Below, in pieces: positions 8,858-54,717 of a stretch of DNA of 64,000 bases. Under the pieces are notes generated by a model that was not told the origin of the DNA, did no database searches, and saw only the letters and a list, made by a program, of their open reading frames with translations. The stretch spans positions 2,294,001 through 2,358,000 of the forward strand of contig NZ_CP047198.1 of NCBI RefSeq assembly GCF_030408635.1, in the 5' to 3' direction. The translations under genes and the position numbers were made by a program. This DNA comes from Corynebacterium coyleae. Its GTDB lineage: Bacteria; Actinomycetota; Actinomycetes; Mycobacteriales; Mycobacteriaceae. Numbering within the stretch: position 1 is the first letter of the stretch; the number at the start of each line of letters is the position of its first letter.

Positions 8858-11800
8858 CGCTTCCCTTCGATCCATGCGTTCATGTGCTTACCGACGATGC
8901 CCACCGCCGGCTCGTCCACAACCGCCAAGTGGTCACCGGGCAGGTGGACGATGGTCAAGTCGCTCACGATAGCGCCCCAGCCGCCGTCCTCGTCAATGTG
9001 GGCGTAGTTCGGCTCGAGCTGGATGGCGCCGTCGTGCATGCGCTCGGCGCGGAACAGCAGCACCGGCACGTCGACGTCGGCCCAGCGGGTGAAGTCGAGG
9101 TGGTTGAGGATCTGGTTGTCCACGAACGATGCCCGCTGGTGCTCCAGGACACCGGCGGCCAGGCCGTGTTCGGAGGCGTCGGTGCTGGCCAGGAACTCAG
9201 TGAGCATGGTCAGCAGCGCTTCTTCGCCGGCGGTTTCGAGCAGCTCGTAAGGCACCTCGAAGTCCAGGCCGTAGGTTTCCTTGGCAAAGGCGGCGTAGCG
9301 GCCCCAGCGCGCCTTGGTCTCCTCGAGCGTGTCGGGGATCGGCTCAGACGGCTGGGTGGTGTCCAAAAGCGCGATGAAGTCGATCTTGTCGTTGCCCAAC
9401 TGGGATGCGACCTCGTAGGCCAGGGCGCCGCCGAAGGACCAGCCGGCGAGGATGACCTTGCGCTCGCCTGCGATGCGCTCGATGTCCTTGACGTACTCGG
9501 CAGCACGCTCCTGGAGGGAGCCCTCCAGGCGTTCGACGCCGTAGACCGGGACGTTCTTATTCAGGCGGCGGGCCAGCGGCGCGTACACCGACGACGACCC
9601 GCCCGCCGGGTGGAAAATAAAGACAGGGTTCTTGGCGGCGTCGCCATCTCGGAAGACGCGGATGTTGCCGTCGACCGGGGTCTCCAGGCCCTCGCGGACC
9701 TTGTTCGCAAGCGGTTCGAGCGTCTCGGCGCCCAGCACATCCTCGGCGGTGACCTCGATGCCGGAGCGCTCGGTCAGGTGCGCGGCGATCTCGCCCGCCT
9801 GCTCCTTACTAATCTCCGGCAAATCCGACGTCACACCAGCAGCCGCCGCACCGGCGTACTTCGCCCAGGCACCGAACACCATGCGTTCGGACGCGTCGCG
9901 CGGGGCGACGCCCACGCCCTGGGTCTTTTCGGCAGCAGCGGCCGGGTCGCGCGCCTCGTCGTTGACAGCCATCGGCTGAGGCGCATCGGTGCGGCCTGCG
10001 ACGGCGTCTTCGACGATGCGGATGACATCGGCGACGGAGGCGTCGCGAAGCGTTTGCACCTGCAGCGGTGGGATCTGGAAGTCGTTTTCCACCCGGTTTT
10101 TGATGCGCATGCCCATCAGGGAGTCAAGGCCCAAGTCGATGAGCGGCAGTTCGTCGGGCAGGTCCTCGGGGTCGTAGCCCATGGATTCGGAAACGATGCC
10201 GCGCAGGCGCTCGGCAACGGTCTCGCCGGAGGTCGGGTCCCAGCGCACGGCGTCGATGTCGTCCTGGTCCTCGTCGGAGGCGGCGGCCGGGGTGTCGTCG
10301 ATACGCGTGGGCTCCATGACGCCCTGAACCGGGGCGCGGTCGATGGTGGAGGCGAAACCCTCCGCGACCAGCACAGAACCGTCGTACACCTTGACGGACA
10401 CGCCGCCGAGCGAGGACGCCACCACAGTGGTCACCTCGCCGTCGGCGGGCAGGTAGCCGTGCTCTTCCGTAGCGACGACACGCGCCCCCTCGGCTACCTC
10501 GGCCGCAGCGGACTCGATGAGTTGGTGCGGGCTGAAGACCTGGTCGGCGGCGGTCGCGAACGCAACCTCGCCGCTCGGCAGCGTCACACGGGAGCCCAAA
10601 AGCGACGTGCTTGCCGACGACGGCCTCGCCGGCGTCCAGTGATCCACCTGCTTAAACGCCATACCCGGCGCGTCGATGACCTTGCCTGCGCCGTAGAAGG
10701 CGCCGAAGTCCACCGGCACGCCGCCGGCGTAGAGCTTCGCGGCGAGGTCCAAAAGCGACTCGAGCTCGTCGACCTTGCGCTTGGTGGTGAACAGCAGCTG
10801 CGCATCCGGCTGGCCGGCGGCGAACGCGGTGTTCATCATGCCCATCAGTGCAACCGGGTTCGGGGTGATCTCCACAAGCGTGGTGTGGCCGGCGGCAAAC
10901 GCGGCTTCGGTGGCGTCCTGGAAGTAGACCGGCTGGCGGGTCATGCGCAGGAAGTAGGCGTCGTCGTGGATGGTCTGGCCGGGCTGGTAGACCTCGCCGC
11001 GGTCGACGGAGGTAAACAGTGGCACCGTGAGCGGGCGCGGGGTGATGCCTGCGATTTCGCCGGCGAGCTCGCCCATGATCGGGTCGAGCGCGCTGGTGTG
11101 GCCGGCGCCGCGCACGTTGAGTTTGCGGGCGAACTTCTCCTCAGCGGTGAGTGCCTCGACGATGTAGTCGACGGCCTTCGACGGCCCGCCGACGGTGGTC
11201 ATGCCGGGGCCCGCGTAGACGGCTGGCTCAACGCCTGCAGCCTGCTCATGCTTATCGACGAACTCCGCCAGCTCCTCGCGCGACAACTCCACAACTGCCA
11301 TCGCGCCTTCTTGGTCGGTGCCGGCGATCATTTCTTCGCCTTCACCCATGAGGCGGGCGCGGGCGGTGGCGATGAGGATGCAGTCCTCGTCGCTCAGCCC
11401 GCCGGCACCGTAGGCTGCGGCAATCTCACCCATGGACATGCCCATGGTGGCGGCCGGGGTGATGCCGGCGGAGGCCAGCAGGTCGGTCTGGGCGATCTGG
11501 ATGGCGGTGATGGTGACCTGGCCGGTTTCGGTGTCGTAGGTCAGCTCGTCGTTTTCAATGATCTCGAGCATGGACCAGCCGGCCTGGAACTTGACCATCT
11601 CGTCGAGTTCGCGCATACGGCGGGCGAACAGCGGCGAGCGGGCGATGAGTTCCTTGGCCATCTTGCGGTGCTGGGAGCCGAAGCCGGAGTAGACGAAGAC
11701 GGGGCCCATCGGGGTCGGTGCGTCGGCGGATGCGATGCCGGGGCCGATCTTGCCGGCAGCGACCTGGCGTAGGCGCTTGACGGCGTCTTCGGTGGTGGTG

Positions 11801-13572
11801 GCCTGGACGACGGCGGCGGAGCGGCCGTGGTTGCGCTTGGCCAGGGAGCGCGCCACCGGGATCAGGTCGGTGTCGGGGCGGCCTTCGAGGAAGTCGGCGA
11901 GCGCGCCGGCAGCTTCCTTGCGACGAGAGGGCAGCAGGCCCGACACCGGCAACGCCGCCGCAGCCACGCCCTCGAAGGATGGCTCGGTTTCGGGTGCCTG
12001 GGTGTCGTAGTCGGCCGGGTCGAAGTCGGCGACGACCACGTGCGCGTTCGTGCCGCCGAAGCCGAAGCCGGACACGCCGGCGATGCGGCGGCCGGAGTAG
12101 CGCGGCCACTCGCGCGGGTCCTGGACGACCTCGATGCGCTCGGTGTCGAAGTCGACGTAGCGGTTTGGGGCGGTGAAGTTAATGGACTCCGGAATCGTGT
12201 CGTGCTTGAGCGCCTCGATCACCTTGATCAGCGCGACGACGCCGGCGGCGGATTCGGAGTGGCCGATGTTGGACTTCGCCGACCCCAGCAGCAGCGGCGA
12301 GCCAGCGTCGCGTCCGCGGCCGAGGACTTCGCCGAGTGCGGTGGCCTCGATCGGGTCGCCGAGGATGGTGCCGGTGCCGTGGGCTTCGACCACGTCGACC
12401 TGCAGCGGGTCCACGCCGGCGTCGTCGTAGGCGCGGCGCAGCACGTCTACCTGGGCGTCTGGGTTGGGGGCGGTCAGGCCGTTGGAGTGGCCGTCGGAGT
12501 TGGTGGCCGAGCCTTTGATTACGCCGAGGATGTTGTCGCCGTCGGCGATGGCGTCGTCGACACGCTTGAGCACGATGAAGCCTGCGGCGTCGGCTCGGAC
12601 GATGCCGTCGGCGTCGTCGGAAAACGCGTGGATGCGCCCGGTCGGCGAGATCACGCCCAACTCCGAAAACGCAAGCGAGGCAAACGGGTTGGCCAGGATG
12701 TTCACGCCGCCGGCTAGGGCGACGTCGGCTTCGCCGTCGCGAAGCGCGCGCACCGCGTGGTGCACCGACACCAGCGACGAGGAGCAGGCGGTGTCCACGT
12801 TCATGGACGGGCCGCGGAAGTCGTAGGCATAAGAGATGCGGTTCGGGATGACCGCGGAGGATGCGCCGGTTAGCGCGTACGGGTGCGCCTCGGCGGGGTC
12901 GGCGACGATGAGCATGCCGTAGTCGTTGTTGGACGAGCCAACGAACACGCCGACGGGTTCGCCGCGCAGCTTGCTGGGTGCGAGGCCTGCGTCTTCGAGG
13001 GCTTCCCACGCAACTTCGAGCATGATGCGTTGCTGCGGGTCCATGTTTTGGGCCTCGAGTGGGGAGACGCCGAAGAATTCGTGGTCGAAGGAGGCGATGC
13101 CGTCCATGTAGCCGCCGTCGGTGTTTTCTTCCGACATTTTGGTGCGGACGACGGGGTCGCCGAGGTATTCGTCCCAGCGTGGTGCGGGAAGTGGGCCGGT
13201 GCCGGAGCGGCCTTCGATGAGCATTTGCCAGAATTCGGCGTTGTTTTTGGCGCCTGGGAAGCGGCCGGCGGAGCCGATGATGGCGATGTCGTGGGTTCCC
13301 GGGGTGGCATTTGCTTGACGACGACGCCTCACCGGCCCCTCCGTCTTCACCGCCGTCAGCGCTGCGGCGAGCGCGGCGACGGTCGGGTACTGGTAGGCGA
13401 TGGTCGGGTCTACGCGGCGGCCGAGGAGCGTTTCCAGTTCGCCGGAGAGGATCACGGCGTCGCGGGATGCGAGGCCGTAGGTCTCCAGCGGCGTGGTCGG
13501 GTCGACGTTATCTACGCCGGTGGCGCGCTCAACCCAGCTGGTGAGCCACTGAATCAGATCATGCTCGTTCAT
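8854..13572 (-). CDS. pks13: Polyketide synthase Pks13, mycolic acid condensase
   Basis: The 1572-residue multidomain enzyme condenses two activated fatty acyl chains into the alpha-alkyl beta-keto ester precursor of mycolates. Domains in order: N-terminal carrier domain (Ser36 in GLASRDAV); ketosynthase with Cys263 in VDTACSSSLVSVHHA and the HGTGT and NIGHSE motifs; acyltransferase with Ser713 in GMSMGEIAAAYG; second carrier domain with Ser1151 in LGLDSLMGM; and C-terminal thioesterase with Ser1379 in LAGWSFGGALAYE, which hands the product to trehalose. All catalytic residues are present. Length is close to corynebacterial Pks13 and shorter than the mycobacterial protein. It sits 35 bp after fadD32 and overlaps accD3. 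Confidence 0.97.
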   Translation of the reverse strand: MNEHDLIQWLTSWVERATGVDNVDPTTPLETYGLASRDAVILSGELETLLGRRVDPTIAYQYPTVAALAAALTAVKTEGPVRRRRQANATPGTHDIAIIGSAGRFPGAKNNAEFWQMLIEGRSGTGPLPAPRWDEYLGDPVVRTKMSEENTDGGYMDGIASFDHEFFGVSPLEAQNMDPQQRIMLEVAWEALEDAGLAPSKLRGEPVGVFVGSSNNDYGMLIVADPAEAHPYALTGASSAVIPNRISYAYDFRGPSMNVDTACSSSLVSVHHAVRALRDGEADVALAGGVNILANPFASLAFSELGVISPTGRIHAFSDDADGIVRADAAGFIVLKRVDDAIADGDNILGVIKGSATNSDGHSNGLTAPNPDAQVDVLRRAYDDAGVDPLQVDVVEAHGTGTILGDPIEATALGEVLGRGRDAGSPLLLGSAKSNIGHSESAAGVVALIKVIEALKHDTIPESINFTAPNRYVDFDTERIEVVQDPREWPRYSGRRIAGVSGFGFGGTNAHVVVADFDPADYDTQAPETEPSFEGVAAAALPVSGLLPSRRKEAAGALADFLEGRPDTDLIPVARSLAKRNHGRSAAVVQATTTEDAVKRLRQVAAGKIGPGIASADAPTPMGPVFVYSGFGSQHRKMAKELIARSPLFARRMRELDEMVKFQAGWSMLEIIENDELTYDTETGQVTITAIQIAQTDLLASAGITPAATMGMSMGEIAAAYGAGGLSDEDCILIATARARLMGEGEEMIAGTDQEGAMAVVELSREELAEFVDKHEQAAGVEPAVYAGPGMTTVGGPSKAVDYIVEALTAEEKFARKLNVRGAGHTSALDPIMGELAGEIAGITPRPLTVPLFTSVDRGEVYQPGQTIHDDAYFLRMTRQPVYFQDATEAAFAAGHTTLVEITPNPVALMGMMNTAFAAGQPDAQLLFTTKRKVDELESLLDLAAKLYAGGVPVDFGAFYGAGKVIDAPGMAFKQVDHWTPARPSSASTSLLGSRVTLPSGEVAFATAADQVFSPHQLIESAAAEVAEGARVVATEEHGYLPADGEVTTVVASSLGGVSVKVYDGSVLVAEGFASTIDRAPVQGVMEPTRIDDTPAAASDEDQDDIDAVRWDPTSGETVAERLRGIVSESMGYDPEDLPDELPLIDLGLDSLMGMRIKNRVENDFQIPPLQVQTLRDASVADVIRIVEDAVAGRTDAPQPMAVNDEARDPAAAAEKTQGVGVAPRDASERMVFGAWAKYAGAAAAGVTSDLPEISKEQAGEIAAHLTERSGIEVTAEDVLGAETLEPLANKVREGLETPVDGNIRVFRDGDAAKNPVFIFHPAGGSSSVYAPLARRLNKNVPVYGVERLEGSLQERAAEYVKDIERIAGERKVILAGWSFGGALAYEVASQLGNDKIDFIALLDTTQPSEPIPDTLEETKARWGRYAAFAKETYGLDFEVPYELLETAGEEALLTMLTEFLASTDASEHGLAAGVLEHQRASFVDNQILNHLDFTRWADVDVPVLLFRAERMHDGAIQLEPNYAHIDEDGGWGAIVSDLTIVHLPGDHLAVVDEPAVGIVGKHMNAWIEGKR
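13311..13325 (+). repeat. Perfect copy of sister word TTGCTTGACGACGAC
   Basis: It lies inside pks13, in the linker between the first carrier domain and the ketosynthase, read on the minus strand as RRRQA. It is the same word as at 53816-53830. Confidence 0.65.
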
Positions 13573-16423: not shown

Positions 16424-16900
16424 TTAGCCGCACAGGTTGGCGCGGGCGGTGTCGCTGAGCAGGGTCGCTACGGTGCCTGCGTCCATGTCGGTGCGGCGTT
16501 GTTCGACCAGTTGCCCGGCGACGGCGTCGCGGGTGATCGTATCGTCGTCGCACACGGTAAACCCGGTTGCTGTGAGTTGGTCTTCAAGACCGTCGACGTT
16601 CACCCCGTTTTGCCTGAGGTGATCCAGAAACGCCTGCTCCTCCGGCGCGTATGAAGGCACCTGGGTGGGCACGGTTTCCACTTCCCGTGCGGGTTGGTCG
16701 CCGGCGCCATTGCGTGACGACGACCCCGTCGCGGATTCCGTCGCGGACGCGGTACCCGACTCAGTGGCCGAGGTGGCCGTTTCCGTGGCTGAGGTGGCCG
16801 CAGTTTCGGTGACGTCCTCGGAGTCCACGGTGGCTCCACCGCAGGCGGTGAGGGCGGCGGTGCAGGTGATCGTCGTCAAGCAAAGGGCGAATTTGCGCAT
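16424..16900 (-). CDS. DUF732-type lipoprotein
   Basis: The 158-residue exported lipoprotein has a signal peptide ending in a lipobox, LTAC, with Cys20. A Thr/Ser/Glu/Ala-rich linker (about residues 28-70) follows. The C-terminal domain APEEQAFLDHLRQNGV with later paired Cys residues (TGFTVCDD and ARANLCG) fits DUF732, a small secreted domain common in mycobacteria and corynebacteria. The function is unknown. The start overlaps the cop1 stop by one base (TAATG), so it is translated with the mycoloyltransferase. Copies of the recurrent 15-bp motif lie in its signal-peptide codons (16870-16883) and, in variant form, in the linker. Confidence 0.8.
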   Translation of the reverse strand: MRKFALCLTTITCTAALTACGGATVDSEDVTETAATSATETATSATESGTASATESATGSSSRNGAGDQPAREVETVPTQVPSYAPEEQAFLDHLRQNGVNVDGLEDQLTATGFTVCDDDTITRDAVAGQLVEQRRTDMDAGTVATLLSDTARANLCG

Positions 16901-22889: not shown

Positions 22890-23390
22890 TTAAATCCTCT
22901 TCTCCGCTTCAATCACGGCCTTCGCCGTCCCCGCGCCAAGCAGTGCGCCGGCGAGGGTGTCGGTCGGGTAATGGACGCCGAGCACGTTACGCGACAGCAT
23001 CATTACGGGCACCAGCAGCCACGGCCACTTCTTGCCGGTGATGTTAGCCAGGTGCGCGGCGGCAGCACCCGTGTTCGCGGCGTGCGAGGACGGGAACGAC
23101 AGTTGCGACGGCGTTCCCACCCCGATCTTCACCCGCGGGTCGTTCGGGCGTGGGCGTCGCACGATGCGTTTGAGCACCACGGTTGCGGCGTGCGCGGCGA
23201 AGGTGCCAACGCCCAGTGCGAGCCACTTTGAGCGCCGTTGCTTATCGACGACCGCCCCCGCCGTTGCAACACCCATCCATCCGAGGTCGTGCTCACCGAA
23301 GTATGAGAGCACACGGGCGCCTTTGGCGGTGGCGGGAGAATACAGCGCGTCCTGGATGGCGACGAGCAGGTCTGTTTCCTTACTGGGCAT
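22890..23390 (-). CDS. PAP2-family phosphatase, probable DPPR phosphatase
   Basis: The 166-residue PAP2 (phosphatidic acid phosphatase 2) protein has the three signature blocks KRIVRRPRPNDPR, SFPSSHAANTGAA and SRNVLGVHYPTDTLAG. At this locus (Rv3807c) the enzyme is thought to remove the 5-phosphate of decaprenylphosphoryl-5-phosphoribose, the step after UbiA. The start overlaps the glfT2 end by 11 bp. A perfect 15-bp recurrent motif (23238-23252) encodes VVDKQ between the N-terminal helix and the first block. Confidence 0.88.
   Translation of the reverse strand: MPSKETDLLVAIQDALYSPATAKGARVLSYFGEHDLGWMGVATAGAVVDKQRRSKWLALGVGTFAAHAATVVLKRIVRRPRPNDPRVKIGVGTPSQLSFPSSHAANTGAAAAHLANITGKKWPWLLVPVMMLSRNVLGVHYPTDTLAGALLGAGTAKAVIEAEKRI
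23238..23252 (+). repeat. Perfect copy of recurrent word TTGCTTATCGACGAC
   Basis: An exact 15-bp match lies inside the PAP2 gene and is read there as VVDKQ on the minus strand. See the finding on the recurrent word for the full list of copies. Confidence 0.7.
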
Positions 23391-26062: not shown

Positions 26063-26752
26063 ATGGGTTCAGTCATCGCCGTTGTTGGCTTGGCGCTGCT
26101 CGACAGCCTGAGCTTGGGCACCCTTGTCATCCCCCTTGCGCTTATCGTCCACTGGCGCGCCGTCCGCGTGCCGGCGCTGACCACCTACCTGCTTACCGTT
26201 GCGGCGGTGTACTTCCTCCTCGGACTAGGGATCCTCCTCGGGTTCGCCGGCCTGGGCTCAATTGCCGAACGGGCCACGCAGACCGACGTCTTCCCATGGA
26301 TCACGTTGATACTGGGCGCGGTCCTCGCGCTTTTCGGCATCTTCGGCCCCAACCCCAAGAAGCCCGAACCCGGGCAGTTGCCGAAACGCGCAGCCGGAGC
26401 CACAAGCAGTGTGCCAAGCATGGTCGCCCTGGGCCTCGGCGCATCACTTACCGAGGCGGCGACGATGCTGCCGTACATCGCAGCGATGGGCATCATCGGC
26501 AGCTGGGAAATCCCCTCCGCGGCAAAAGCCGGGGCCGTGGGCGTCTACTGTCTCGTCATGATCTTGCCGACGGTCATCCTCGCCACCTTGGCGCTGCTCT
26601 TCGGCCAGAAGTTCTTCCCGCAGCTCGAGCGCCTCATCCCCCGCCTCGAGTACGAGGCAAAAGTGACACTTCTCTGGATCGCCGCCATCGTCGGCATCTA
26701 CATGGTGGCGTACAGCTTTGCGACGATCCGCGGCGACCTCCCCGCCTCGTAA
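26063..26752 (+). CDS. GAP-family (Sap/SfLAP-type) membrane protein
   Basis: The 229-residue protein has six hydrophobic segments and resembles the actinobacterial GAP family (mycobacterial Gap, linked to export of glycopeptidolipids). Characteristic parts are GLALLDSLSLGTLVIPLALI at the N-terminus and MVALGLGASLTEAATMLPYIAAMGI in the middle, with a hydrophilic linker between. The ATG at 26063 follows GGAGATCC. It is controlled, by inference, by the divergent TetR protein. The substrate is unknown; the family links to export of envelope lipids or small molecules. Confidence 0.75.
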   Translation: MGSVIAVVGLALLDSLSLGTLVIPLALIVHWRAVRVPALTTYLLTVAAVYFLLGLGILLGFAGLGSIAERATQTDVFPWITLILGAVLALFGIFGPNPKKPEPGQLPKRAAGATSSVPSMVALGLGASLTEAATMLPYIAAMGIIGSWEIPSAAKAGAVGVYCLVMILPTVILATLALLFGQKFFPQLERLIPRLEYEAKVTLLWIAAIVGIYMVAYSFATIRGDLPAS

Positions 26753-30779: not shown

Positions 30780-30782
30780 CAA

Positions 30783-39426: not shown

Positions 39427-39454
39427 GGGCTCAGAATAACAAAAGTTGTTTCAA

Positions 39455-39791: not shown

Positions 39792-39800
39792 AAGTACCTC

Positions 39801-41081
<1,281 letters not shown>

Positions 41082-43047: not shown

Positions 43048-44504
43048 GCAAGATCTAGACAGCGCTCCACCGCGTCTTCCCACGCGGTGACCAGCCGGTC
43101 CCGTTCGGGGCCGGCCATTTCGCTTTCCCAGGTGGTGGAGGTGCCGAGCGACAAGGGTTCGTCGATAAGCGAAATGCCCATCGCAGCCGCCGACGCCGCC
43201 CCCATCACGGTCGTCTCCGTGTTCGCGGGCCGCTCCACCGTCACGCCGAGGATGTCGGCCTGCATCTGCATCAACAGGTTGTTCTCCGTCATGCCGCCAT
43301 CGACCTTCAGCGTCGTCGGGTCGCCGCCCATCGCACACACCACCTCACGCGCCTGCAAGCATGTCGCCTCCAGCGCAGCGCGAGCAATGTGCCGCTTATC
43401 GACGAACCGCGTCAACCCCACAATCACACCCCGCGCATCCGGACGCCACCGCGGCGCGAACAGGCCGGAAAACGCGGGCACGATCACCACTCCCCCACTG
43501 TCTTCGACCTGCTCCGCGAGGGTTTCCGATTCTGCGGCGGTGCTCAGGATGCCGAGCTGGTCGCGCAGCCACTGAATCAACGACCCGCCCACGGCCACCG
43601 AGCCCTCCTGCGCGTACACCGGCGGCTGGCCCTGCACCTGGTAGGCGACGGTGGTCAGCAGGCCGCGGTCGCTAAACTTCGGCTCGGCACCCGTGTTGAG
43701 CAGCATGAACAGGCCGGTGCCGTACGTCATTTTCGCGTCGTTCTCGTGCAGGCCACCCTGGCCGAACAGCGCGGCCTGCTGGTCGCCGAGCACGCCCGTG
43801 ATCGGCACGCCCGCCAGCGGACCCCGCGGACGGATCTTGCCAAAGTTGCCCACAGACGGCCGGATCTCGGGAAGGATTCGGGGCGGGATGCGGAGGTCGT
43901 CGCAAAGTTGCTCGTCCCAATCGAGGGTTTCCAAATCCATGAGCAACGTACGCGACGCGTTGGTCACATCCGTCAGATGCAACGCCTCGTCCTTGTCCTT
44001 CGCCCCGCCCGTGAGGTTCCAGATCAGCCACGTATCCATCGTGCCCGCCAGGAGTTCGCCCTTTTCGGCGCGCTCGCGAGCGCCTTCGACATTGTCCAGA
44101 ATCCACGCCCACTTCGGCGCCGCAGGATACGAATTGTGCAAAAGCCCGGTCTTGTCCAGGTACTTCGTGGCGTCCCCATCGTGGTTCGTGCGGGTGTCCT
44201 GCCACACGATCGCGTTGTAGATCGGCTTGCCGGTTGCTTTGTCCCAAATCACGGCAGTCTCGCGCTGGTTGGTCAGCCCGAGAGCGTAAATGTCCTGCTC
44301 AGCGATGTCCTTGTCAGCAAGTGCTTCGCTGAGCGCCCGGCGTGTGTTACGCCAGATCTCCATCGGGTCGTGCTCCACCCACCCCTTGCGCGGCATGATC
44401 TGCTCGTGCTCAAACTGCGCCTGGGTGATGACCTTCCCGTCCGTGCGCGTGATGCACACACGTGTCGACGTCGTACCCTGGTCAATCGCCGCAATCAAAG
44501 CCAT
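43044..44504 (-). CDS. glpK: Glycerol kinase
   Basis: The 486-residue FGGY-family kinase phosphorylates glycerol to glycerol-3-phosphate. It has the N-terminal phosphate-binding [26 protein letters not shown], the loop [18 protein letters not shown] and [15 protein letters not shown], and the C-terminal [17 protein letters not shown]. The ATG at 44504 places the phosphate loop at residues 5-17 as usual; the frame is open 33 codons upstream without support. No glpF or glpD is adjacent. The promoter must lie in the repeat-rich stretch upstream. Confidence 0.95.
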
Positions 44505-44858: not shown

Positions 44859-45740
44859 ATGGGGGATTTACAGAAGAAACGCGAAGCAGAACTCGAACTC
44901 ATTCAAGACGTCGCAGCAAAGTCCAGATCTGCAGTAATCACAGGTCCAGCCGCGGCCAGGTGGCTAGGACTCTCGACATATAACTGGGTCACCAAAGTCG
45001 ACCTTGCACTACCAGGAGAAACGAGGCCGTGGAAGCGCGGCGATGCCCATCGCATCTACAGAAGTGGAATCCTCACCGACCAGGAGTACCTCGTACACAA
45101 GGGGGTTCGCACGGCGACGGCGATCAGGGCGATGTTCGACTCGTTCAGGTACCACGGGCGCACTGAAGCGCTGGTGCAGATCGAGTCGGCGAGGTGGAAG
45201 CACCGCCACCTGACCACGGAATACCTACTGGATAAAACGGGAGCGCTGCCGAAAGCACGCGGGATCGCGGGGTTCCGGAAACTCATCGAATACGCGACGG
45301 ATACGTCAGCGAGTGTGTTGGAGACGATTGTGCGCGACGCAATCCTGCGTGCGATCGCAGACGGAACGCTTTCCGGGGTGGTCACGCTCGAGTTCCAGGT
45401 TGGCCTGCGGATTCGGGAACGTGACGGCCGCCCGATGATGGCCTGGGCGGACATACTGATCAATGGGTTTCTCGTTGTGGAGGCCGACGGTCTCGAGAAG
45501 ACGAGCGGGGTAATGGGAGATGCAGCGAGCATGCTTCGCGACGAACGCGAGCGCGAAACCCAGCTTCAAAACCAGGGCGCAGTTGTCAGGCGGGTGAGGT
45601 GGGACCGTGCAACGTCCACCGAGTTCATCGCGTCGCTGCAGACTGTGATCGACAGCAGCCCCGGCGTGAGAGAGTTGCCGAATCGGGTGGACGTGAACTA
45701 TCGCGACTGGTTGGAGGAGTTAGAACAACGCGCGGCATAA
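44859..45740 (+). CDS. DUF559/Vsr-like nuclease-fold protein with AbiEi-like N-terminus
   Basis: The 293-residue protein is of a type common in actinobacteria. The N-terminal part (SAVITGPAAARWLGLSTYN) resembles the winged helix of AbiEi-like proteins. The C-terminal part carries a PD-(D/E)xK-like pattern: ETIVRDAILRA, MAWADILINGFLVVEADG and RDERERETQLQNQGAVVRRV. Such proteins may cut DNA, but their function is not established and no partner toxin is adjacent. The ATG at 44859 follows a GC-poor stretch; a longer start at 44754 exists. It stands alone. Confidence 0.65.
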   Translation: MGDLQKKREAELELIQDVAAKSRSAVITGPAAARWLGLSTYNWVTKVDLALPGETRPWKRGDAHRIYRSGILTDQEYLVHKGVRTATAIRAMFDSFRYHGRTEALVQIESARWKHRHLTTEYLLDKTGALPKARGIAGFRKLIEYATDTSASVLETIVRDAILRAIADGTLSGVVTLEFQVGLRIRERDGRPMMAWADILINGFLVVEADGLEKTSGVMGDAASMLRDERERETQLQNQGAVVRRVRWDRATSTEFIASLQTVIDSSPGVRELPNRVDVNYRDWLEELEQRAA

Positions 45741-45750: not shown

Positions 45751-46590
45751 CTAGTACCAGCGCTCGAGGACTGCGGCGACGCCGTGTTCGTCGTTGGTGT
45801 TGGTGACGTGGTCGGCGGCGTCTTTGAGTTCGGGTTTGGCGTTAGCCATGGCCACGCCGGTGCCCGCCCACTGGAGCATCTCCAGGTCGTTGGGCATGTC
45901 GCCGAACGCGATTGTCTCGGCGGCGGTAAGCCCGTAGCGGTCGGCGAGGTATTGGGCGCCGGTGGCTTTGTTGGCGCCGGGTCGGGAGATTTCGATGAGG
46001 CCTTCGTCCATGGAGTAGGTGACGTGGGCGACGGTGTCGTCGATAAGCGGTGCGATGATGTCGTACATCTCGGCGGAGGTCATGTCGGGGCAGCGGACCA
46101 GCAGTTTCGCGGCGGGCACCTCGATGAGCGTTTGCTTATCGACGACACCAAACCGACTATCCCACGCATCCGGGTTGTACTCCGGCGTGATCAGGAAGCA
46201 TTCGTCCTCCGGGTCGAGGGCTGAGGAGCCGACGCGTTCGACGCCGTAGCCGTGGTAAACGTCGGCAAGCGCCCGTTCGACGTCGTGGAGGATTTCGCCC
46301 ATGGTGTCGGGGCTGAGTTCGTGGGCGTGGAGGACGCGGTCCTCGGTGGGGTCGTAAACCACGGCACCGTTGGCGCACACGCATACGGGTGCGACCGGGA
46401 GCTGCTCGAGCACCGGGATGAGCCAACGGTGGGGACGGCCGGTGGCCAGGCCGAAATGAGCGCCGCTGGAAATCGCACGGGTTACCACGTTGCGCAGGCG
46501 CGGGGTGACGCGGCCGGCGGAGGTGATGAAGGTGCCGTCGATGTCAGAGATGATCAGGCGGGGTGCGGTGTCCGGCAGCGAGGTGGTCAT
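45751..46590 (-). CDS. HAD-superfamily (Cof-type, IIB) phosphatase
   Basis: The 279-residue HAD hydrolase has motif I IISDIDGTF (Asp16, Asp18), motif II about LATGRPHRW, a C2B cap domain (about 85-185) and motif IV AFGDMPNDLEML. The family dephosphorylates sugar phosphates and related metabolites; the substrate is unknown. The stop lies 10 bp from the convergent nuclease-like gene. The start overlaps the acyltransferase stop by four bases (ATGA), so it belongs to the serS-led run. One perfect and one near copy of the recurrent word lie inside. Confidence 0.9.
   Translation of the reverse strand: MTTSLPDTAPRLIISDIDGTFITSAGRVTPRLRNVVTRAISSGAHFGLATGRPHRWLIPVLEQLPVAPVCVCANGAVVYDPTEDRVLHAHELSPDTMGEILHDVERALADVYHGYGVERVGSSALDPEDECFLITPEYNPDAWDSRFGVVDKQTLIEVPAAKLLVRCPDMTSAEMYDIIAPLIDDTVAHVTYSMDEGLIEISRPGANKATGAQYLADRYGLTAAETIAFGDMPNDLEMLQWAGTGVAMANAKPELKDAADHVTNTNDEHGVAAVLERWY
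46132..46146 (+). repeat. Perfect copy of recurrent word TTGCTTATCGACGAC
   Basis: An exact 15-bp match lies inside the HAD phosphatase gene (VVDKQ on the minus strand). Another 12-bp core copy in opposite orientation lies at 46036-46047, read as LIDD. Confidence 0.7.
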
Positions 46591-47417
46591 GGTTTCCGGC
46601 CCTTCTTCGCGGCTTTCTCGGCGCGTTCCTCGGCGTGGATCCGGTCGGCCTCCTCAATAGTGGGTGCGGTGCCGCCGAGGGCGGCGGGCAGCCAGGGCTC
46701 ACCTGTGCCGGGGCCGGCGAGTGCGGTGTATTCGGTGCGGGATTCGTCGAGAAGCAATTGCATCTGGCGTTTGAGTTCCGCGGTGTCGGCCTCGGCGTCA
46801 CCGGTGAGTTCGACGGGTGCGCCGTAGCGGACGATGACCGGCACATTGCGGAAGTGTTTCGGCAGGTCCTTGGTCCAAATACGTTGCGATCCCCAGATCA
46901 CGCACGGGATGAGCGGCACACCGGCCTGATGGGCGATGCGCGCGGCGCCGGTTTTGAAACTGGCAAGTTCGAACGAGCGGGAGATGGTCGCTTCCGGGAA
47001 GATGCCCACCAGGTTGCCGCTGCGAAGTCGCTCCACGGCGGGCGCGATGGCGGTGCTGCCGTGGGCGCGGTTGACCGGCACGTGATGCATCTTACGCAGC
47101 AGGCGTCCGAGGACGGGTACGTCGAAGACTTCCTGTTTGGCCATGAAGCGCACGAGGCGCTCGCCGCGCAGGTAGGGGCCGGTGCCCATGAGGATGAAGT
47201 CGGCGTAACCGGTGTGGTTACCGGCGATAAGCGCGCCGCCCTCGGTGGGGACGTGTTCGGCGCCGATGACGGTCACGTCGATGTTCAACGCCCGCATCAC
47301 GCGCCGTAGCGTACCCACGAGCCCCTGGTAGAAGCGCTCCACCGCCTCCTCACGGTGGGCTGGGCTTTCAGTAAAGCGTTGCGGGACGTTGAATCCACGG
47401 TAGGCGCGCAGTTTCAT
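46587..47417 (-). CDS. 1-acyl-sn-glycerol-3-phosphate acyltransferase (PlsC-like)
   Basis: The 276-residue LPLAT-family acyltransferase adds an acyl chain to lysophosphatidate or a similar lipid. The catalytic HX4D motif is NHTGYAD (His68, Asp73). GIFPEATISRS corresponds to the EGTR-type phosphate-binding block, and VPLIPCVIWGSQRIW is the fourth block. The C-terminal 60 residues are charged and rich in Ala and Lys. The ATG at 47417 overlaps the serS stop by one base (TAATG). In related genomes an acyltransferase and a HAD gene also follow serS. Confidence 0.88.
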   Translation of the reverse strand: MKLRAYRGFNVPQRFTESPAHREEAVERFYQGLVGTLRRVMRALNIDVTVIGAEHVPTEGGALIAGNHTGYADFILMGTGPYLRGERLVRFMAKQEVFDVPVLGRLLRKMHHVPVNRAHGSTAIAPAVERLRSGNLVGIFPEATISRSFELASFKTGAARIAHQAGVPLIPCVIWGSQRIWTKDLPKHFRNVPVIVRYGAPVELTGDAEADTAELKRQMQLLLDESRTEYTALAGPGTGEPWLPAALGGTAPTIEEADRIHAEERAEKAAKKGRKP

Positions 47418-48670
47418 TAGGGCGTGAGCACTTCCTTGCCAACCCACGGACGCAGCGCCTCAGGGACGCGCACGGAACCGTCGGCCTGCTGGTTGTTCTC
47501 CAGGATGGCGACGAGCCAGCGGGTGGTGGCCAAGGTGCCGTTGAGGGTTGCGGCAATCTGGGTCTTGCCGTCGGCGTCGCGGTAGCGCGTCTGCAGACGA
47601 CGAGCCTGGAAGGTGGTGCAGTTCGAGGTAGACGTCAGTTCGCGGTAGGTGTTTTGCGACGGCACCCACGCTTCCGTGTCGTACTTACGGGCTGCCGAGG
47701 AGCCGAGGTCGCCGGCTGCGACGTCGATGATGCGGTACGGCACCTCAACGGCGGCGAGCATGTCGCGCTCCAGGCCAAGGAGCTTCTGGTGCATCTCCTC
47801 TGCGTCTTCCGGCTTGCAGTAGGCAAACATTTCGAGTTTGTCGAACTGGTGGACGCGCAAAATGCCCTTCGTGTCCTTGCCGTAGGAGCCGGCCTCGCGG
47901 CGGAAGCAGGAGGACCAGCCGGCGTAGAGCAGCGGGCCGTCGGACAGGTCGATGATCTCGTCCTGGTGCAGGCCGGCAAGCGCGACCTCGGAGGTGCCGA
48001 CGAGGTACATATCGTCGCGCTCCAGGTAGTAAATCTCCTCGTCGTGCGCGTCGAGGAAGCCCGTGCCCTGCATAATGTCCGGGCGTACCAGCACCGGCGG
48101 AATCATGAGCTTGAAGCCAGCCTCGCGTGCCTTCTGAGCTGCGAGCATGAGCATGCCCAGCTGCATCCAGGCGCCGTCGCCGGTGAGGTAGTAGAAGCGC
48201 GCGCCGCCGACCTTGGTGCCGCGCTTCATGTCGATCAGGCCGAGCGGCTCGGCGAGGTCCAGGTGGTCCTTGACCTCAAAGTCGAACTCGGGGACCTCGC
48301 CGACGTGCTCGAGGACCACGAAATCCTCTTCGCCGCCAGCCGGGGCGCCCTCGATGACGTTGGCGATGGAGTACTGCAGCTTCTCCAGCTTCTCCTGCGC
48401 CTCGGCTTCCGCAGCTTCGGCTTCCTTCACGCGGGCCTTCAACTCGTTAGAGCCTTCCAGCAGTGCCGGGCGGTCCTCCGGAGCGGCCTGGCCAATCTTT
48501 TTACCGAACGCTTTTTGCTCGGCGCGCAGCTCATCTGCTGCTTGGATCGCAGAGCGTCGGGCTTCGTCGGCGGCCAAGAGCTCGTCGACAAGCGCTGGGT
48601 CCTCTCCGCGAGCTCGCTGGGACTCGCGGACTGCCTCGGGGTTTTCGCGCACACGCTTCAGATCAATCAC
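47417..48670 (-). CDS. serS: Seryl-tRNA synthetase
   Basis: The 417-residue class II synthetase charges tRNA-Ser. The N-terminal coiled-coil arm (about 28-105, rich in Ala, Glu and Lys) binds the tRNA. Motif 2 is [23 protein letters not shown], and motif 3 reads [19 protein letters not shown]. Glu/Thr residues for serine binding are in [13 protein letters not shown]. It starts with ATG at 48670, divergent from the farR-like gene with an 80-bp gap. It leads the operon with the acyltransferase and HAD genes. Confidence 0.97.
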
Positions 48671-49488: not shown

Positions 49489-50580
49489 ATGGCTTCGAAA
49501 CAGACCGCGCTGCGCGCCTTTCTCATCGCCACTCTGGCGGGCACGGTGGGCGCTGGCACCTACGGACTGACCGCCGATAGTTCCGGCTCCGCGAACCCGG
49601 CGGACGGCTCGTCTACCTCGAGTTCTGTTGCGGAGGCGGCGTCGTTCACCACCGCCGACGCCGGCTCGTGTTTGACGTGGCAGGTTGCCGAAGATGGCAC
49701 CCATACCAACTTTGAGCAGGCGGATTGCGCCGGCGAGCACCGCTTCGAGGTTGCCGCGCGCGAGGACCTGGCCACCTACCCCACCTCCGAGTTCGGGCCC
49801 GAGGCGCCGCTGCCAAACCAGACCCGCCAGGCGCAACTGCGCGAGGAACTCTGTGGCGCGGCAACCCTGCGCTACCTGGACGGCAAGTACGACCCGAACG
49901 GGCGTTACTCCATCGCTCCGATCCTGCCGCCGGCCGACGCGTGGCAAAACGGGGACCGCACCATGCTGTGCGGCCTGCAGGAAACCGACAGCAACGGCGA
50001 GCCGGTGCTGACCTCCGGCCGAGTTGCGGAGGCGGACCAGGCCCGCGTGTTTGAGGCCGGCGAGTGCGTGGCCATCGACGCCGCCAACTCCCTGTCGGTG
50101 GTGCCATGCGACAAGCCGCACCAGTTGGAGATCACCAGCCGCGTCAACCTGGCAAAACACTTCGCGGACCACACCCCGTCCGTCGAGGAGCAGGACAAGT
50201 ACCTCGGCGACGTGTGCACTCAGGCCGCGCAGGATTACCTGGGCAGCGAGGAAGCGCTCTACCAGATCGCGCTGCGCCCCTTCTGGACCTCGCAGACCCC
50301 GGCCGCCTGGGAGGGCGGTTCCCGCAGCGCCAATTGTGCGTTGATGTTCTCGCGCCCGGAGGGCCAGTTTGCCAACCTCACCGGGTCTGCGACGCAGGGC
50401 CGCGAGCATTTGCTTATCGACGACGCCCCGCCACCCGCACGCCCCGAACGCCGCCCGTTACGCTCTGAGCAGCAGGCGAACCAGTCGCAGGCTCCAGCCC
50501 CCGAGGCACCAGCCCCGGCCCCTGAGGCCCCAGCCCCCGAAGCGCCAGCCCCGGCTCCTGCGGCTCCGGTGCAGTTCTGA
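49489..50580 (+). CDS. Exported septum-formation-domain protein with Pro/Ala-rich tail
   Basis: The 363-residue protein is related to Rv3835. A signal or transmembrane segment (about 8-28) is followed by a Ser-rich linker and two units of a septum-formation-type domain with regularly spaced Cys residues (GSCLTWQ, QADCAGEHRFEV, EELCGAATL; then GECVAIDA, VPCDKPHQLEI, DVCTQAAQDYL). The C-terminal 45 residues are a PAPEAP-type low-complexity tail. Gene order serS, regulator, this gene, zincin matches Rv3834c-Rv3836. The function is not established. A perfect motif copy (50410-50424) encodes LLIDD just before the tail. Confidence 0.8.
   Translation: MASKQTALRAFLIATLAGTVGAGTYGLTADSSGSANPADGSSTSSSVAEAASFTTADAGSCLTWQVAEDGTHTNFEQADCAGEHRFEVAAREDLATYPTSEFGPEAPLPNQTRQAQLREELCGAATLRYLDGKYDPNGRYSIAPILPPADAWQNGDRTMLCGLQETDSNGEPVLTSGRVAEADQARVFEAGECVAIDAANSLSVVPCDKPHQLEITSRVNLAKHFADHTPSVEEQDKYLGDVCTQAAQDYLGSEEALYQIALRPFWTSQTPAAWEGGSRSANCALMFSRPEGQFANLTGSATQGREHLLIDDAPPPARPERRPLRSEQQANQSQAPAPEAPAPAPEAPAPEAPAPAPAAPVQF
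50410..50424 (+). repeat. Perfect copy of recurrent word TTGCTTATCGACGAC
   Basis: An exact 15-bp match lies in the septum-formation-domain gene, read in the forward frame as LLIDD, opposite in coding sense to the VVDKQ copies elsewhere. Confidence 0.7.
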
Positions 50581-50930: not shown

Positions 50931-51751
50931 GCCTTCGGCCAGCTCCCGAGCATGCGTATCTGCGTCGTCTGCTCCCCCACGGCGGCAATCGCCTGGGCGA
51001 TGGGGTCGTCGTCAATGTGGCCCACAAGGTCGACGAAGAAGTTGTACGTGTTGGGCTCTTTGCGGGTCGGGCGCGACTCGATGCGCGACATGTCCACCCC
51101 GCGCACCGCGAACTCTTGTAGCGCGCCGACCAGGGTGCCTGGTTTGTTGGGGGTGCGAAAGACGATGGCGGTGCGGTCGTTGCCTGTTGCGGCCGGTACC
51201 TTGCCTTGCTTACCGACGAGCACAAACCGCGTCCGCGCCGTCTCCATATCCGCCACCCCACGGGCGTGAACGTCCAGGCCGAACAGGTCCGCGGCGCGCT
51301 CGGGCGCGGCCGCCACGTCCGCCTCGCCGTCCGCGACCATCTTCGCCGCGGCCGCGTTCGAGGACGCCGGGACGAACTCCACGCCCGGCGCGTGCTCACC
51401 AACCCAGCGTTTGACCTGGCTGTACGCCACCGGATGGGTGGCCAAGCGGCGGGCGCTGCCCAGTGTTTCGCCCGCGCGTGTCATGATGGCGAACGCGATG
51501 GACAGTTCCGTCTCGGCGTAGATCTGCACGCCGGGGGTGTCGACGAGCGCGTCGGCGGTGGTGGTCACCGCACCGTCGACGGAGTTCTCAATCGCGCACA
51601 CCGCCCAATCGGTCTTGCCTTCCGCGACCGCTTTGAGCGCCGCCGCAGGCGAGTCAACCGGGACGAACTCGGCTTGGCCTGTGGAGTCGAAGCGGCGCGC
51701 CGCCTCCTCGGTGAAGGTGCCCTCGGGTCCGAGATACGCAATTCGTGTCAT
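50927..51751 (-). CDS. pheA: Prephenate dehydratase
   Basis: The 274-residue enzyme converts prephenate to phenylpyruvate in phenylalanine synthesis. The catalytic PDT domain covers about 1-180 with IAYLGPEGTFTEEAARR, AICAIENSVDGAVTTT and the active Thr in TARTRFVLVGK. A C-terminal ACT domain (about 190-265) with KPGTLVGALQEFAVRGVDM and ESRP binds phenylalanine for feedback control. It is monofunctional, without chorismate mutase. The stop overlaps the zincin gene on the other strand. Position corresponds to Rv3838c. Confidence 0.95.
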   Translation of the reverse strand: MTRIAYLGPEGTFTEEAARRFDSTGQAEFVPVDSPAAALKAVAEGKTDWAVCAIENSVDGAVTTTADALVDTPGVQIYAETELSIAFAIMTRAGETLGSARRLATHPVAYSQVKRWVGEHAPGVEFVPASSNAAAAKMVADGEADVAAAPERAADLFGLDVHARGVADMETARTRFVLVGKQGKVPAATGNDRTAIVFRTPNKPGTLVGALQEFAVRGVDMSRIESRPTRKEPNTYNFFVDLVGHIDDDPIAQAIAAVGEQTTQIRMLGSWPKA

Positions 51752-52674
51752 TTCTTCTCCTGTGCTGTTTCTTCAGCGAGTAGCGCGTAGGTGATCAGCC
51801 AGTGTGTGGCCATGAAGTTGGTGCCGGTGAGGTGGGGCACGGTGGTGTCGATAAGCATCTGCGTGCCCTCTGGCTTACCGATGGCCCGCAGCAACCACGC
51901 CCGCGTCAGCATTAGCCCGAGCAGATGGGCCTGCTGGCCGTCCTCGGGGTCGTTGACCTGGAGGGGGGTGGCGTAGAACTCCAGCGCACCCGGAGTGAAG
52001 AAGCAGTCTAGCCAGGCGGGGAAATCCTCGCCGAGTACGCGCTGCATCAGGGCTGCCTGCGCCAGCCCGTTGGGGACGAAGTCGTGGCCGGACAGTTCCC
52101 AGGTGTGTGGGTAGGCGTGGTCGTTGTGGAACCAGGCGCGGGCGGTGTCGTCGCAAAGCAAGCGGAGCTTGTGGAGGCCGAGTGCGTCGGCGGCGTCGAT
52201 GATCAGCAGCAGCGCGAGCGCGGAGTTGCTATGCACACCGTGGCGCACCGGCAACTGCTGCGTGCCCAGCCACGCGGTGATGTTCCCCTCGAGTTGGCTG
52301 GCCAGCGGCGTCATCGCGGCCTCCCACGGGGTGCCGAGCGTGACCTTGCAGAGTTGCAGCGCCCACGCCCAGCCATACGGCCGCTCGTACAGCGGGTGCT
52401 CACGCAGGTAGACGGCCTCGGCGGCGATGTTGTCGGCGGTCAGGCGCTGGTTGAGCAGGGCGGTAAGCGAGGGGTCGCTGACTAGCTTGTGCAACTTCAC
52501 CCCACTGGCCAGCATGTGCACGCACGAATGCCAGTCGTAGGAACCCCAAAACGCCGGGTGCAGGCGACGCGGGGTGACGTCCGTGTCGGTCGGGCAGGCG
52601 CTCGCGTGGTGCATCGCCGCCGGATACTCCCGGCCGACAACCTCGACGACGGTGCGCGCCCACAATTCGTGCAT
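51748..52674 (-). CDS. DUF2891 family protein
   Basis: The 308-residue protein of the DUF2891 group is probably an all-helical toroid. Characteristic parts are FWGSYDWHSCVHMLASG, YERPYGWAWALQL, GVHSNSALALLLIIDAADALG and GHDFVPNGLAQAALM. The enzymatic role is unknown. It overlaps the pheA start by four bases, so pheA is translated after it. Start ATG at 52674. Confidence 0.8.
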   Translation of the reverse strand: MHELWARTVVEVVGREYPAAMHHASACPTDTDVTPRRLHPAFWGSYDWHSCVHMLASGVKLHKLVSDPSLTALLNQRLTADNIAAEAVYLREHPLYERPYGWAWALQLCKVTLGTPWEAAMTPLASQLEGNITAWLGTQQLPVRHGVHSNSALALLLIIDAADALGLHKLRLLCDDTARAWFHNDHAYPHTWELSGHDFVPNGLAQAALMQRVLGEDFPAWLDCFFTPGALEFYATPLQVNDPEDGQQAHLLGLMLTRAWLLRAIGKPEGTQMLIDTTVPHLTGTNFMATHWLITYALLAEETAQEKK

Positions 52675-53421: not shown

Positions 53422-54717
53422 ATGTCAACGACGCCCCACTCCAACGACCCCCGCGACAACGCGGGCGAGTTCGTCCTGGGCAAAGACGGAAAACCCCTCG
53501 TCGACCGCTACGGCCGGCCCGTCCGCCGCCGGCCCTCGCAGCCTGCGCGGCCTGCGGATTCCCGCACAGAGCGCCGTGTGGAGCCTCACGCGGAGCGCCG
53601 CGTCGAACCGGGCCACACCGTGTACGAGCCGCGTCCCGCCTACGAGCCGCGCCGCGCACCCCAGTACCCGCCACGCGAAGCTTCACGGCCGGTGCAGTAC
53701 CGGCCCGGACAGCGCCCAGCGCAGGGCCAGTACAGGCCCGCGCAGCGTCAGGCACCCCGTGATGAACGGCCGATGCCGCTGCAGGTGTCCAAGAGGAGGG
53801 AAAGGTCGGCGGGGCGTCGTCGTCAAGCAAAACGCCCTGGATGCGGCAGCATCATCGCCCTCATCATCGTGATCGCGCTCGCGTCCGTCCTCCTTACCGA
53901 CGCCCGCCTCAACCGCGTCGCCGCACTCCCCGACGAACAAATCGGCAATACAGCCGGCACCAACTGGCTCCTCGTCGGTTCCGACTCACGCACGGGCCTG
54001 AGCGAACGCGACGTCGAACGGCTCGGCACCGGCGGCGACATCGGCTCCACACGCACCGACACCATTATGCTGCTCCACCTGCCCCTACGCGGCAAAGCAA
54101 CCCTGATGTCCATCCCGCGCGACTCCTACCTGCCAGTACCCGGATACGGCTACGACAAAATCAACGCCGCGTTCGCCCTCGGCGGCCCCGAACTCCTCGT
54201 GCAGACCGTCGAGCAAAACACCGGGCTACACATCGACCGCTACGCCGAAATCGGCATGGGCGGCATCGCCGGCGTTGTCGACGCCGTCGGAGGCGTGGAA
54301 ATCTGCGTTGCCGAACCTATCGACGACCCCCTCGCCAACCTGTTCGTCGAGCCCGGCTGCCAAAAGATGGACGGCCCCACCGCACTCGGCTACGTACGCA
54401 CCCGCGCTACCGCCCAAGGCGACCTCGACCGCGTCGTCCGCCAACGCGAATTCCTCAGCGCATTGACCTCACGAGTGTTCTCACCTGCGGTGTTCCTCAA
54501 CCCGTTCCGTGTTGGACGCCTGCTATGGGTCGCGCCAACCCTGCTCACCGTCGGTTCCGGCGACCACGTTTGGAACCTCGCCCGCATCGCCTTCGCTATG
54601 CGCGGCGGCCTTGACACCGAGACCGTGCCCATCGGCGGCTTCGCCGACACCGAAGTGGGCAACGTGGTGCTCTGGGACGACGAGGCAGCCGAAGCCCTGT
54701 TCGCCCGGCTGCGGTAG
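53422..54717 (+). CDS. lcpB: LytR-CpsA-Psr family protein, LcpB-like
   Basis: The 431-residue LCP-family protein has a long Arg/Pro-rich cytoplasmic region (about 1-135), one transmembrane helix (GCGSIIALIIVIALASVLL) and an extracytoplasmic LCP catalytic domain. The latter contains GSTRTDTIMLLHL, SIPRDSYLPVPGYGYDKIN and ALGYVRTRATAQGDLDRVVRQ with the conserved Arg and Asp residues. LCP enzymes attach arabinogalactan to peptidoglycan in this group. C. glutamicum has two (LcpA and LcpB), and the pheA-side location matches LcpB. No C-terminal LytR_C domain is present. A motif copy lies at 53816-53830. Confidence 0.85.
   Translation: MSTTPHSNDPRDNAGEFVLGKDGKPLVDRYGRPVRRRPSQPARPADSRTERRVEPHAERRVEPGHTVYEPRPAYEPRRAPQYPPREASRPVQYRPGQRPAQGQYRPAQRQAPRDERPMPLQVSKRRERSAGRRRQAKRPGCGSIIALIIVIALASVLLTDARLNRVAALPDEQIGNTAGTNWLLVGSDSRTGLSERDVERLGTGGDIGSTRTDTIMLLHLPLRGKATLMSIPRDSYLPVPGYGYDKINAAFALGGPELLVQTVEQNTGLHIDRYAEIGMGGIAGVVDAVGGVEICVAEPIDDPLANLFVEPGCQKMDGPTALGYVRTRATAQGDLDRVVRQREFLSALTSRVFSPAVFLNPFRVGRLLWVAPTLLTVGSGDHVWNLARIAFAMRGGLDTETVPIGGFADTEVGNVVLWDDEAAEALFARLR
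53816..53830 (-). repeat. Perfect copy of sister word TTGCTTGACGACGAC
   Basis: On the plus strand it reads GTCGTCGTCAAGCAA, inside lcpB just before the transmembrane segment (codons RRRQA). It is identical to the copy in pks13 at 13311-13325. Confidence 0.65.

Follow-up and report, generated by a model that had tools for sequence, protein, structure and literature searches.

A short asymmetric DNA word with species dialects in Corynebacterium, a probable DNA uptake sequence with a Tad/Flp pilus as its candidate reader

In Neisseriaceae, the DNA uptake sequence (DUS) is a non-palindromic 10-mer whose copy number per genome ranges from about one thousand to several thousand; its eight dialects share an invariant core, and five genomes of the wider family have no obvious DUS (Frye et al. 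2013, PMC3630211). The Neisseria DUS is bound by the minor pilin ComP (PMC6370729). The uptake signal sequence (USS) of Haemophilus influenzae is a short asymmetric word of approximately 1300 copies that often forms inverted pairs used as terminators; for three Corynebacterium genomes included in the same survey of spaced motifs, its Table 2 lists patterns derived from clustered regularly interspaced short palindromic repeats (PMC5217627). Transformation of Micrococcus luteus requires a Flp pilus with TadE/F proteins, and the terms "uptake sequence" and "Corynebacteri" are absent from the accessible text of that paper (PMC4322843). In this study, a 64-kb stretch of the 2.51-Mb single-contig genome of Corynebacterium coyleae (G000), positions 2,294,001 to 2,358,000 and hereafter called the window, was analyzed for a recurrent word, GCTTnnCGACGA. 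This word is probably a DNA uptake sequence comparable to those of Neisseria and Haemophilus, and its reader would be a Tad/Flp pilus.

The 11-mer CTTATCGACGA, the core of the word as originally predicted, was matched at every position listed for it, 13 in all on both strands of the window. Only 0.04 matches were expected and none of 100 dinucleotide shuffles reached 13, in agreement with the earlier estimate of far less than one per window. It was, with GCTTATCGACG, one of the top two over-represented 11-mers. The 15-mer TTGCTTATCGACGAC was found 23 times when up to 2 mismatches were allowed (0.11 expected), and all four exact copies, at 23238, 41011, 46132, and 50410, were present. In the whole G000 genome, 251 copies of CTTATCGACGA (134 forward and 117 reverse) were counted, far above the reversed-word control, which had none. 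The looser pattern GCTTnnCGAYG gave 1234 matches (492 per Mb) versus 117 for its reversed control.

Substitution counts were made in a 464-kb sample of G000, consisting of the window and 20 other stretches (21 segments). They showed that the unit is GCTTnnCGACGA, with 12 letters, ten fixed bases and two free ones. It occurred in 160 copies versus 2.9 expected, approximately one per 2.9 kb, and the next base was C in 103 of them. Changes in the CGACG part were hardly tolerated, some variation was seen at the first two positions and at the final A, and the T2-to-G substitution was tolerated (59 copies versus 4.7 expected). The gap dinucleotides were AT (41), GT (24), GA (23), CT (20), TG (13), TT (10), and ten others. 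The 15-mer had been taken as the unit, with a separate "sister" form beside it; both views were abandoned, since the two gap bases are free (AT, GA, GT, CT, TG, and others being accepted) and the sister form is simply a copy whose gap reads GA. The window contained 28 GCTT copies (0.41 expected) and 12 copies of the GCGT variant (0.77 expected). Fitting the word by expectation maximization was dropped, as the fit drifted to codon periodicity. As with DUS and USS, many copies of a word of 9–12 bases are thus present far above expectation.

A simple gene caller of our own found 344 genes covering 77% of the 464-kb sample. Of the 50 copies of CTTATCGACGA in the sample, 21 were in a LIDD-type frame, 13 in a VVDK-type frame, 1 in another frame, 2 at gene edges, and 13 outside called genes; the LIDD and VVDK types correspond to opposite gene orientations. 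That most genic copies fall in these two frames would also be expected if codon-pair bias or a recurrent protein motif had produced the word, but such an origin is hardly credible, and a protein motif or synonymous codon choice was rejected as its source. Upon shuffling among synonymous codons within genes (60 shuffles), only about 10 (4.2 sense and 5.3 antisense) of the 128 genic copies of GCTTnnCGACGA (83 sense and 45 antisense) were retained, and for CTTATCGACGA 22 sense and 13 antisense copies compared with 2.1 and 0.5 in 100 shuffles. The sample counts therefore lie far above the synonymous-codon controls that had been proposed as a check. The protein words are themselves enriched in the gene set (LIDD, 18 versus 2.2 expected; VVDK, 13 versus 2.0), as if the DNA word were writing them. 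CTT, noted before as a seemingly unusual codon for Leu, makes up 12% of Leu codons in the gene set but was used in 21 of the 26 codings of LID[DE]. When long open frames were added to the gene set, the density of GC[TG]TnnCGACGA was the same in genes (0.470/kb, 198 copies) and between genes (0.470/kb, 20 copies). As predicted, copies were found in both orientations and in the LIDD, VVDK, and YRRL frames, and they were not confined to a single protein motif in one frame.

Comparison with G099, a genome of the same genus, gave five alignment blocks longer than 1 kb, in which the site flanks were 81.8% identical. All ten fixed bases were kept in 18 of the 19 G000 sites, as compared with 24% for random ten-of-twelve patterns (p = 1.2e-10). 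A single one of the 190 fixed bases was changed, compared with 9 of the 38 free ones (Fisher tests: fixed versus flank, 8e-14; fixed versus free, 4e-7), and in the reverse view 18 of 25 G099 sites were intact in G000. That the fixed bases stay while the free bases change also argues against a codon or protein artefact. With synonymous codon choice as the null, selection on DNA rather than on protein, as the original prediction proposed, is strongly supported by the synonymous shuffles and by this conservation.

With the replication origin placed at coordinate 1 and the terminus at the midpoint of the genome (the GC skew of G000 changes sign near 1.2–1.3 Mb), 83 copies of GCTTnnCGACGA in the sample ran with replication and 77 against it, although 71% of gene bases are on the leading strand. 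Like DUS and USS, the word is non-palindromic, lies in both orientations, and has no tie to the direction of replication. Its spacing was random (coefficient of variation 1.07, null range 0.88–1.15), and even spacing was therefore dropped as support. Density rose with GC content (rho 0.64 over 46 bins of 10 kb), the observed/expected ratio being approximately 20 to 33 in every GC class. Segments L007, L016, and L019 and the region at 26.7–39.9 kb of the window were poor in copies.

At least one copy of CTTATCGACGA was detected in 221 of the 242 genomes of the genus; the counts ranged from 0 to 379. Counts of GCTTnnCGAYG divided these genomes into 54 motif-low (<200), 14 intermediate (200–399), and 174 motif-high (≥400), the cuts of 200 and 400 being chosen after the counts were seen. 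Among 14 relatives sampled at 80 or 100 kb each, nine had some form of the word and five (G042, G131, G007, G011, and G065) had none. At least five dialects are present within the genus, different spellings among related species being a trait of DUS as well: 1) GCTTnnCGACGA in G000 and G129; 2) GCTTnnCGACGnC in G013, G015, and more weakly G014; 3) GCTTnnCGATGnC in G001, G004, and G106; 4) GATT or GCTTnnCGACGnC in G053; and 5) the most divergent, TGACGnCGCG, in G012, with 71 copies in 96 kb (L049–L052 and L098) versus 2.9 expected. The first four share TTnnCGAyG, and we infer that the fifth is probably a distant dialect belonging to the same system. Homologous sites are re-spelled between species in a helicase gene linked to the tad locus (see below). 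At alignment column 698 of this gene, GCTTGCCGACG is present in G000, G099, and G010 and GCTTGCCGATG in G001 and G004; at column 72, GCTTATCGACG is present in G000, G099, G010, and G129 and GCTTGCCGATG in G106.

No recognised dialect was found in ten more motif-low genomes, of which 80 kb each was scanned. Other words headed the lists in some genomes. In G113 (L112–L115), the top word was the palindrome TTTCACGTGAAA, which we take to be parS-like, an 11-mer within it being counted 12 times over both strands in 80 kb. In G241 (L140–L143), AGTTATCCACA, presumably DnaA-box-like, had 12 counts in 80 kb versus 0.08 expected, and words of this kind topped the list also in G230. In G080 (L136–L139), TATTGACGCC had 9 counts in 80 kb versus 0.18 expected and may represent a dialect that is weak or in decay.

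Of 249 genomes sampled across the order, the 246 from outside the genus had no comparable excess of GCTTnnCGAYG. The highest density read there was approximately 96 per Mb (G401; 530 versus 301 for the reversed control), compared with 492 per Mb in G000, and counts about twice the control do occur, as in G285 (270 versus 138). Among the 80 matches listed by a contig scan with a TadA alignment, most were from other genera and two were Corynebacterium records; L152 had 18 copies of GCTTnnCGAYG in 21 kb (1.0 expected) and L182 had 0 in 7 kb (0.26 expected).

Among the roles listed in the original prediction, DNA uptake fits best. GCTTnnCGACGA would be a DUS-like label of self-DNA in Corynebacterium. 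A cell-surface protein would bind the word on free DNA, the likeliest candidate being a TadE-type minor pilin of the Tad/Flp pilus whose genes adjoin the helicase gene; the pilus would draw DNA so marked across the mycolate outer membrane, after which ComEA/ComEC would carry it in. DNA of the same or a related species would bear the label and hence be preferred, so that the word would accumulate and be maintained genome-wide, in either orientation, where codons allow. Drift of the receptor would cause drift of the spelling and thereby dialects, and decay of the system would lead to loss of the word. Corynebacteria have a mycolate outer membrane, and a pilus may therefore have to bring DNA through it. 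It is from this membrane, the DUS and USS precedents, and the need for Flp in M. luteus that we infer uptake as the function, the Tad pilus as the machine, and a minor pilin as the reader.

The competence machinery is present in the genus. ComEC was found in 241 and TadA in 239 of the 242 genomes (TadA over its cut-off in 232), and gene tests on 30 genomes (10 motif-high and 20 motif-low) detected ComEA (29 over cut-off), DprA, and PDDEXK_1 nuclease genes in all 30. The tad locus of G000 encodes CpaE/Ssd, TadA, TadB, TadC, a small Flp-like protein (DUF4244), two TadE-type minor-pilin-like proteins (the Rv3655c type below its cut-off and the Rv3654c type above), and a DEAH helicase. These eight genes were in the same order in 18 of 18 loci examined whole, five of them from motif-low genomes without a known dialect, with the second TadE gene ≤1.5 kb from the helicase gene. 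The helicase, which carries an MrfA Zn-binding domain, follows the tad locus on the other strand (L093:11570-13969); this pairing was kept in all 18 loci, which raises the possibility that the helicase acts on DNA entering the cell.

A TadE1 profile, built from 16 of the 18 loci (11 motif-high), matched 233 of the 242 genomes. Matches with E above about 1e-14, a threshold fixed only once the data were known, were classed with missing ones as weak or absent. This class comprised 35 of the 54 motif-low, 5 of the 14 intermediate, and 4 of the 174 motif-high genomes; of these four, two are incomplete assemblies (G168, 87%; G189, 53%). TadA model scores were lower in motif-low genomes (median exponent 123.5 versus 139) and ComEC scores were alike (42 versus 42); rank correlations with motif count, uncorrected for phylogeny, were 0.34 for TadE1, 0.33 for TadA, and 0.05 for ComEC. 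In 14 motif-low genomes picked for weak TadE1/TadA matches, the helicase and TadA genes were present in all 14, TadE plus Flp were recognised beside the helicase (1.5-kb flanks) in 3, and Flp beside TadA in 4. These divergence and gene-recognition data suggest that the word and the pilus proteins tend to decay together, although not strictly and with shared ancestry not removed. For the candidate receptor, a putative minor pilin, the observation is a correlation: TadE/TadA divergence tracks motif loss with exceptions.

Several observations weigh against an uptake sequence read by the Tad pilus. ComEC, ComEA, DprA, and TadA are present equally in motif-low species, and the presence of the machinery is therefore no predictor of the word; neither these genes nor PDDEXK_1 separated motif-high from motif-low genomes by presence or absence. 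Two near-complete motif-high genomes, G171 and G148, had no or a weak TadE1 match. Conversely, 19 of the 54 motif-low genomes had a good match; one of these, G012, has its own dialect, and five (G042, G131, G113, G102, and G207) have a whole tad locus, with no dialect in the three of them scanned (G042, G131, and G113). The TadE1 profile came mostly from motif-high loci, and its E-values therefore lean toward these; moreover, the association with the motif was uncorrected for phylogeny, and the weak/strong cut was post hoc. Terminator-like inverted pairs, common for USS, were in no clear excess (9 pairs closer than 60 bp versus 6.3 expected, all 9 inverted) and were dropped as support. No paper on competence in Corynebacterium was found among those listed from the open literature surveyed.

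Other roles for a word under selection on DNA were considered. A binding site of a chromosome-organising or segregation protein (nucleoid protein, SMC loader, FtsK guide, or division regulator) would suit a word that is genome-wide, even between genes and intergenic DNA, and conserved in position between G000 and G099. Such a site is nonetheless unlikely: the copies lack an orientation bias like that of the FtsK-orienting polar sequences (KOPS), no concentration or gap was visible near the origin or mid-genome in the 21 sampled segments, the word is non-palindromic with random spacing, and loss or re-spelling within one genus would be unusual for an essential system. A Chi-like recombination signal regulating a nuclease-helicase of the RecBCD/AddAB/AdnAB type is improbable too. 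The word is asymmetric, recurs about once per 2.9 kb of the sample in coding and non-coding DNA alike, and is accompanied by PDDEXK_1 (RecB-type nuclease) genes in all 30 genomes tested, but the presence of these genes does not differ between motif-low (20) and motif-high (10) genomes. Chi sites typically have 5 to 8 bases and are biased along the direction of replication, as compared with ten fixed bases and no bias here. The near-equal strand counts thus disfavor a segregation role and the Chi-like role named in the original prediction, and an oriented signal of the Chi/KOPS type was rejected.

A target of DNA methylation or restriction, or another epigenetic mark resembling the highly iterated palindrome HIP1, could account for the bipartite look with a fixed gap and for the species-specific spelling. 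Restriction targets are usually depleted rather than enriched, the gaps of type I targets are longer, and HIP1 is a palindrome; GCTTnnCGACGA is enriched, has a short gap, and is not a palindromic octamer of the HIP1 type or any other palindrome, which makes this explanation very unlikely.

The copies of the word in the window, in window coordinates, were as follows.

5447..5458, (-) strand, GCTTGACGACGA copy inside a gene
6098..6109, (+) strand, GCTTCCCGACGA copy inside a gene
7385..7396, (-) strand, GCTTTACGACGA copy inside a gene
8886..8897, (+) strand, GCTTACCGACGA copy inside the Pks13-like gene, antisense
10609..10620, (+) strand, GCTTGCCGACGA copy in the Pks13-like gene, antisense, kept in G099
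11250..11261, (+) strand, GCTTATCGACGA copy in the Pks13-like gene, antisense, with the GCGT variant in G099
13313..13324, (+) strand, GCTTGACGACGA copy (sister form) in the Pks13-like gene, antisense, with other gap bases in G099
16870..16881, (-) strand, GCTTGACGACGA copy (sister form)
20166..20177, (-) strand, GCTTGACGACGA copy (sister form)
20314..20325, (+) strand, GCTTATCGACGA copy
23240..23251, (+) strand, GCTTATCGACGA copy within the exact 15-mer at 23238
26715..26726, (+) strand, GCTTTGCGACGA copy, the last GCTT copy ahead of 13 kb without any
39972..39983, (-) strand, GCTTATCGACGA copy in the UDP-galactopyranose mutase gene, sense, frame YRR
41013..41024, (+) strand, GCTTATCGACGA copy, intergenic by our own gene call, within the exact 15-mer at 41011
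43159..43170, (-) strand, GCTTATCGACGA copy in the FGGY carbohydrate kinase gene, sense
43394..43405, (+) strand, GCTTATCGACGA copy in the FGGY carbohydrate kinase gene, antisense
45533..45544, (+) strand, GCTTCGCGACGA copy
46037..46048, (-) strand, GCTTATCGACGA copy in the HAD hydrolase gene, sense
46134..46145, (+) strand, GCTTATCGACGA copy in the HAD hydrolase gene, antisense, within the exact 15-mer at 46132
46744..46755, (-) strand, GCTTCTCGACGA copy
48582..48593, (-) strand, GCTTGTCGACGA copy
50412..50423, (+) strand, GCTTATCGACGA copy in the Septum_form gene, sense, within the exact 15-mer at 50410
51208..51219, (+) strand, GCTTACCGACGA copy
52148..52159, (-) strand, GCTTTGCGACGA copy
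53817..53828, (-) strand, GCTTGACGACGA copy (sister form, 53816)
56906..56917, (+) strand, GCTTGTCGACGA copy
58284..58295, (-) strand, GCTTATCGACGA copy in the arginase-family gene, sense
63557..63568, (+) strand, GCTTTACGACGA copy
4574..4585, (+) strand, GCGTATCGACGA, tolerated one-base variant (GCGT), one of 12 GCGT copies in the window
Starts of the other 11 GCGT copies: 921, 8766, 10295, 12554, 14572, 16246, 16712, 18431, 20274, 38905, 41236

The sister forms predicted at 13311, 53816, 16870, 5446, and 20165 and the TTGCTAATCGACG variants predicted at 21016, 24722, and 30768 were all present, their flanks differing by one or two bases at most. One copy had been described as intergenic; our own gene call places 41011 between genes, but an alternative start of the open reading frame at 39801–41045 would include it. 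The region at 8854–41045 of the window contains mycolate/arabinogalactan genes (Pks13-like, LGFP-repeat esterase, GlfT2, and UDP-galactopyranose mutase). Within it, the 13 kb at 26727–39971 has no copy of GCTTnnCGACGA, a single GCGT copy (38905), and lower GC, and encodes a sulfate permease, a DUF4143/AAA_14 protein, a Na/H exchanger, a siderophore ABC transport set, and a Schlafen/AlbA_2 protein. This stretch looks accessory, although part of it aligns to G099 at 70%.

In a wider proposition, for and against which we regard the arguments as evenly balanced, a self-DNA uptake code would have evolved in corynebacteria independently of Proteobacteria and be read by a Tad/Flp pilus; its dialects, at least five within the one genus, would block or bridge gene exchange, and loss of the code would accompany pilin decay. 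Neither this word nor an uptake sequence in Corynebacterium was reported in the titles and abstract openings listed from the open literature surveyed, which covered no preprint server and few subscription journals. Corynebacterium species include skin and mucosal commensals, industrial strains, and some pathogens. If the word is an uptake code, most of them are, or recently were, naturally competent, and their partners in gene exchange could be read from the genome. A sequence-specific uptake system would then exist in a Gram-positive phylum in which it was unexpected and with a different pilus; sequence-specific DNA uptake would extend to mycolate-bearing Gram-positives, and the Tad pilus would gain a sequence-reading part. 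Should it have another function, what is left is a chromosomal word that is strongly conserved in the genus, forms dialects, and would have some other reader.

Compared with known systems, the Corynebacterium word resembles Chi and KOPS, which are asymmetric, frequent, chromosome-wide words oriented with replication, in the first three properties and differs from them in having no replication orientation. With the USS of Pasteurellaceae (Haemophilus AAGTGCGGT) it shares the form of a short asymmetric word in about a thousand copies; it is unrelated in sequence and shows no clear excess of inverted pairs. The resemblance to the DUS of Neisseriaceae extends to an asymmetric word, a high copy number, a family of dialects with a shared core (here TTnnCGAyG, in the first four dialects), and some genomes without the word. 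This is different from the Neisseriaceae case in that the sequence is another one with a two-base free gap and the host is a mycolate-bearing Gram-positive; the pilus would be of the Tad/Flp type with a putative minor-pilin receptor, instead of the type IVa pilus and ComP receptor of Neisseria. For the pilus, the likeness is to M. luteus, which has an actinobacterial tadA-B-C-flp-tadE/F system in which TadE/F-type proteins are needed for transformation.

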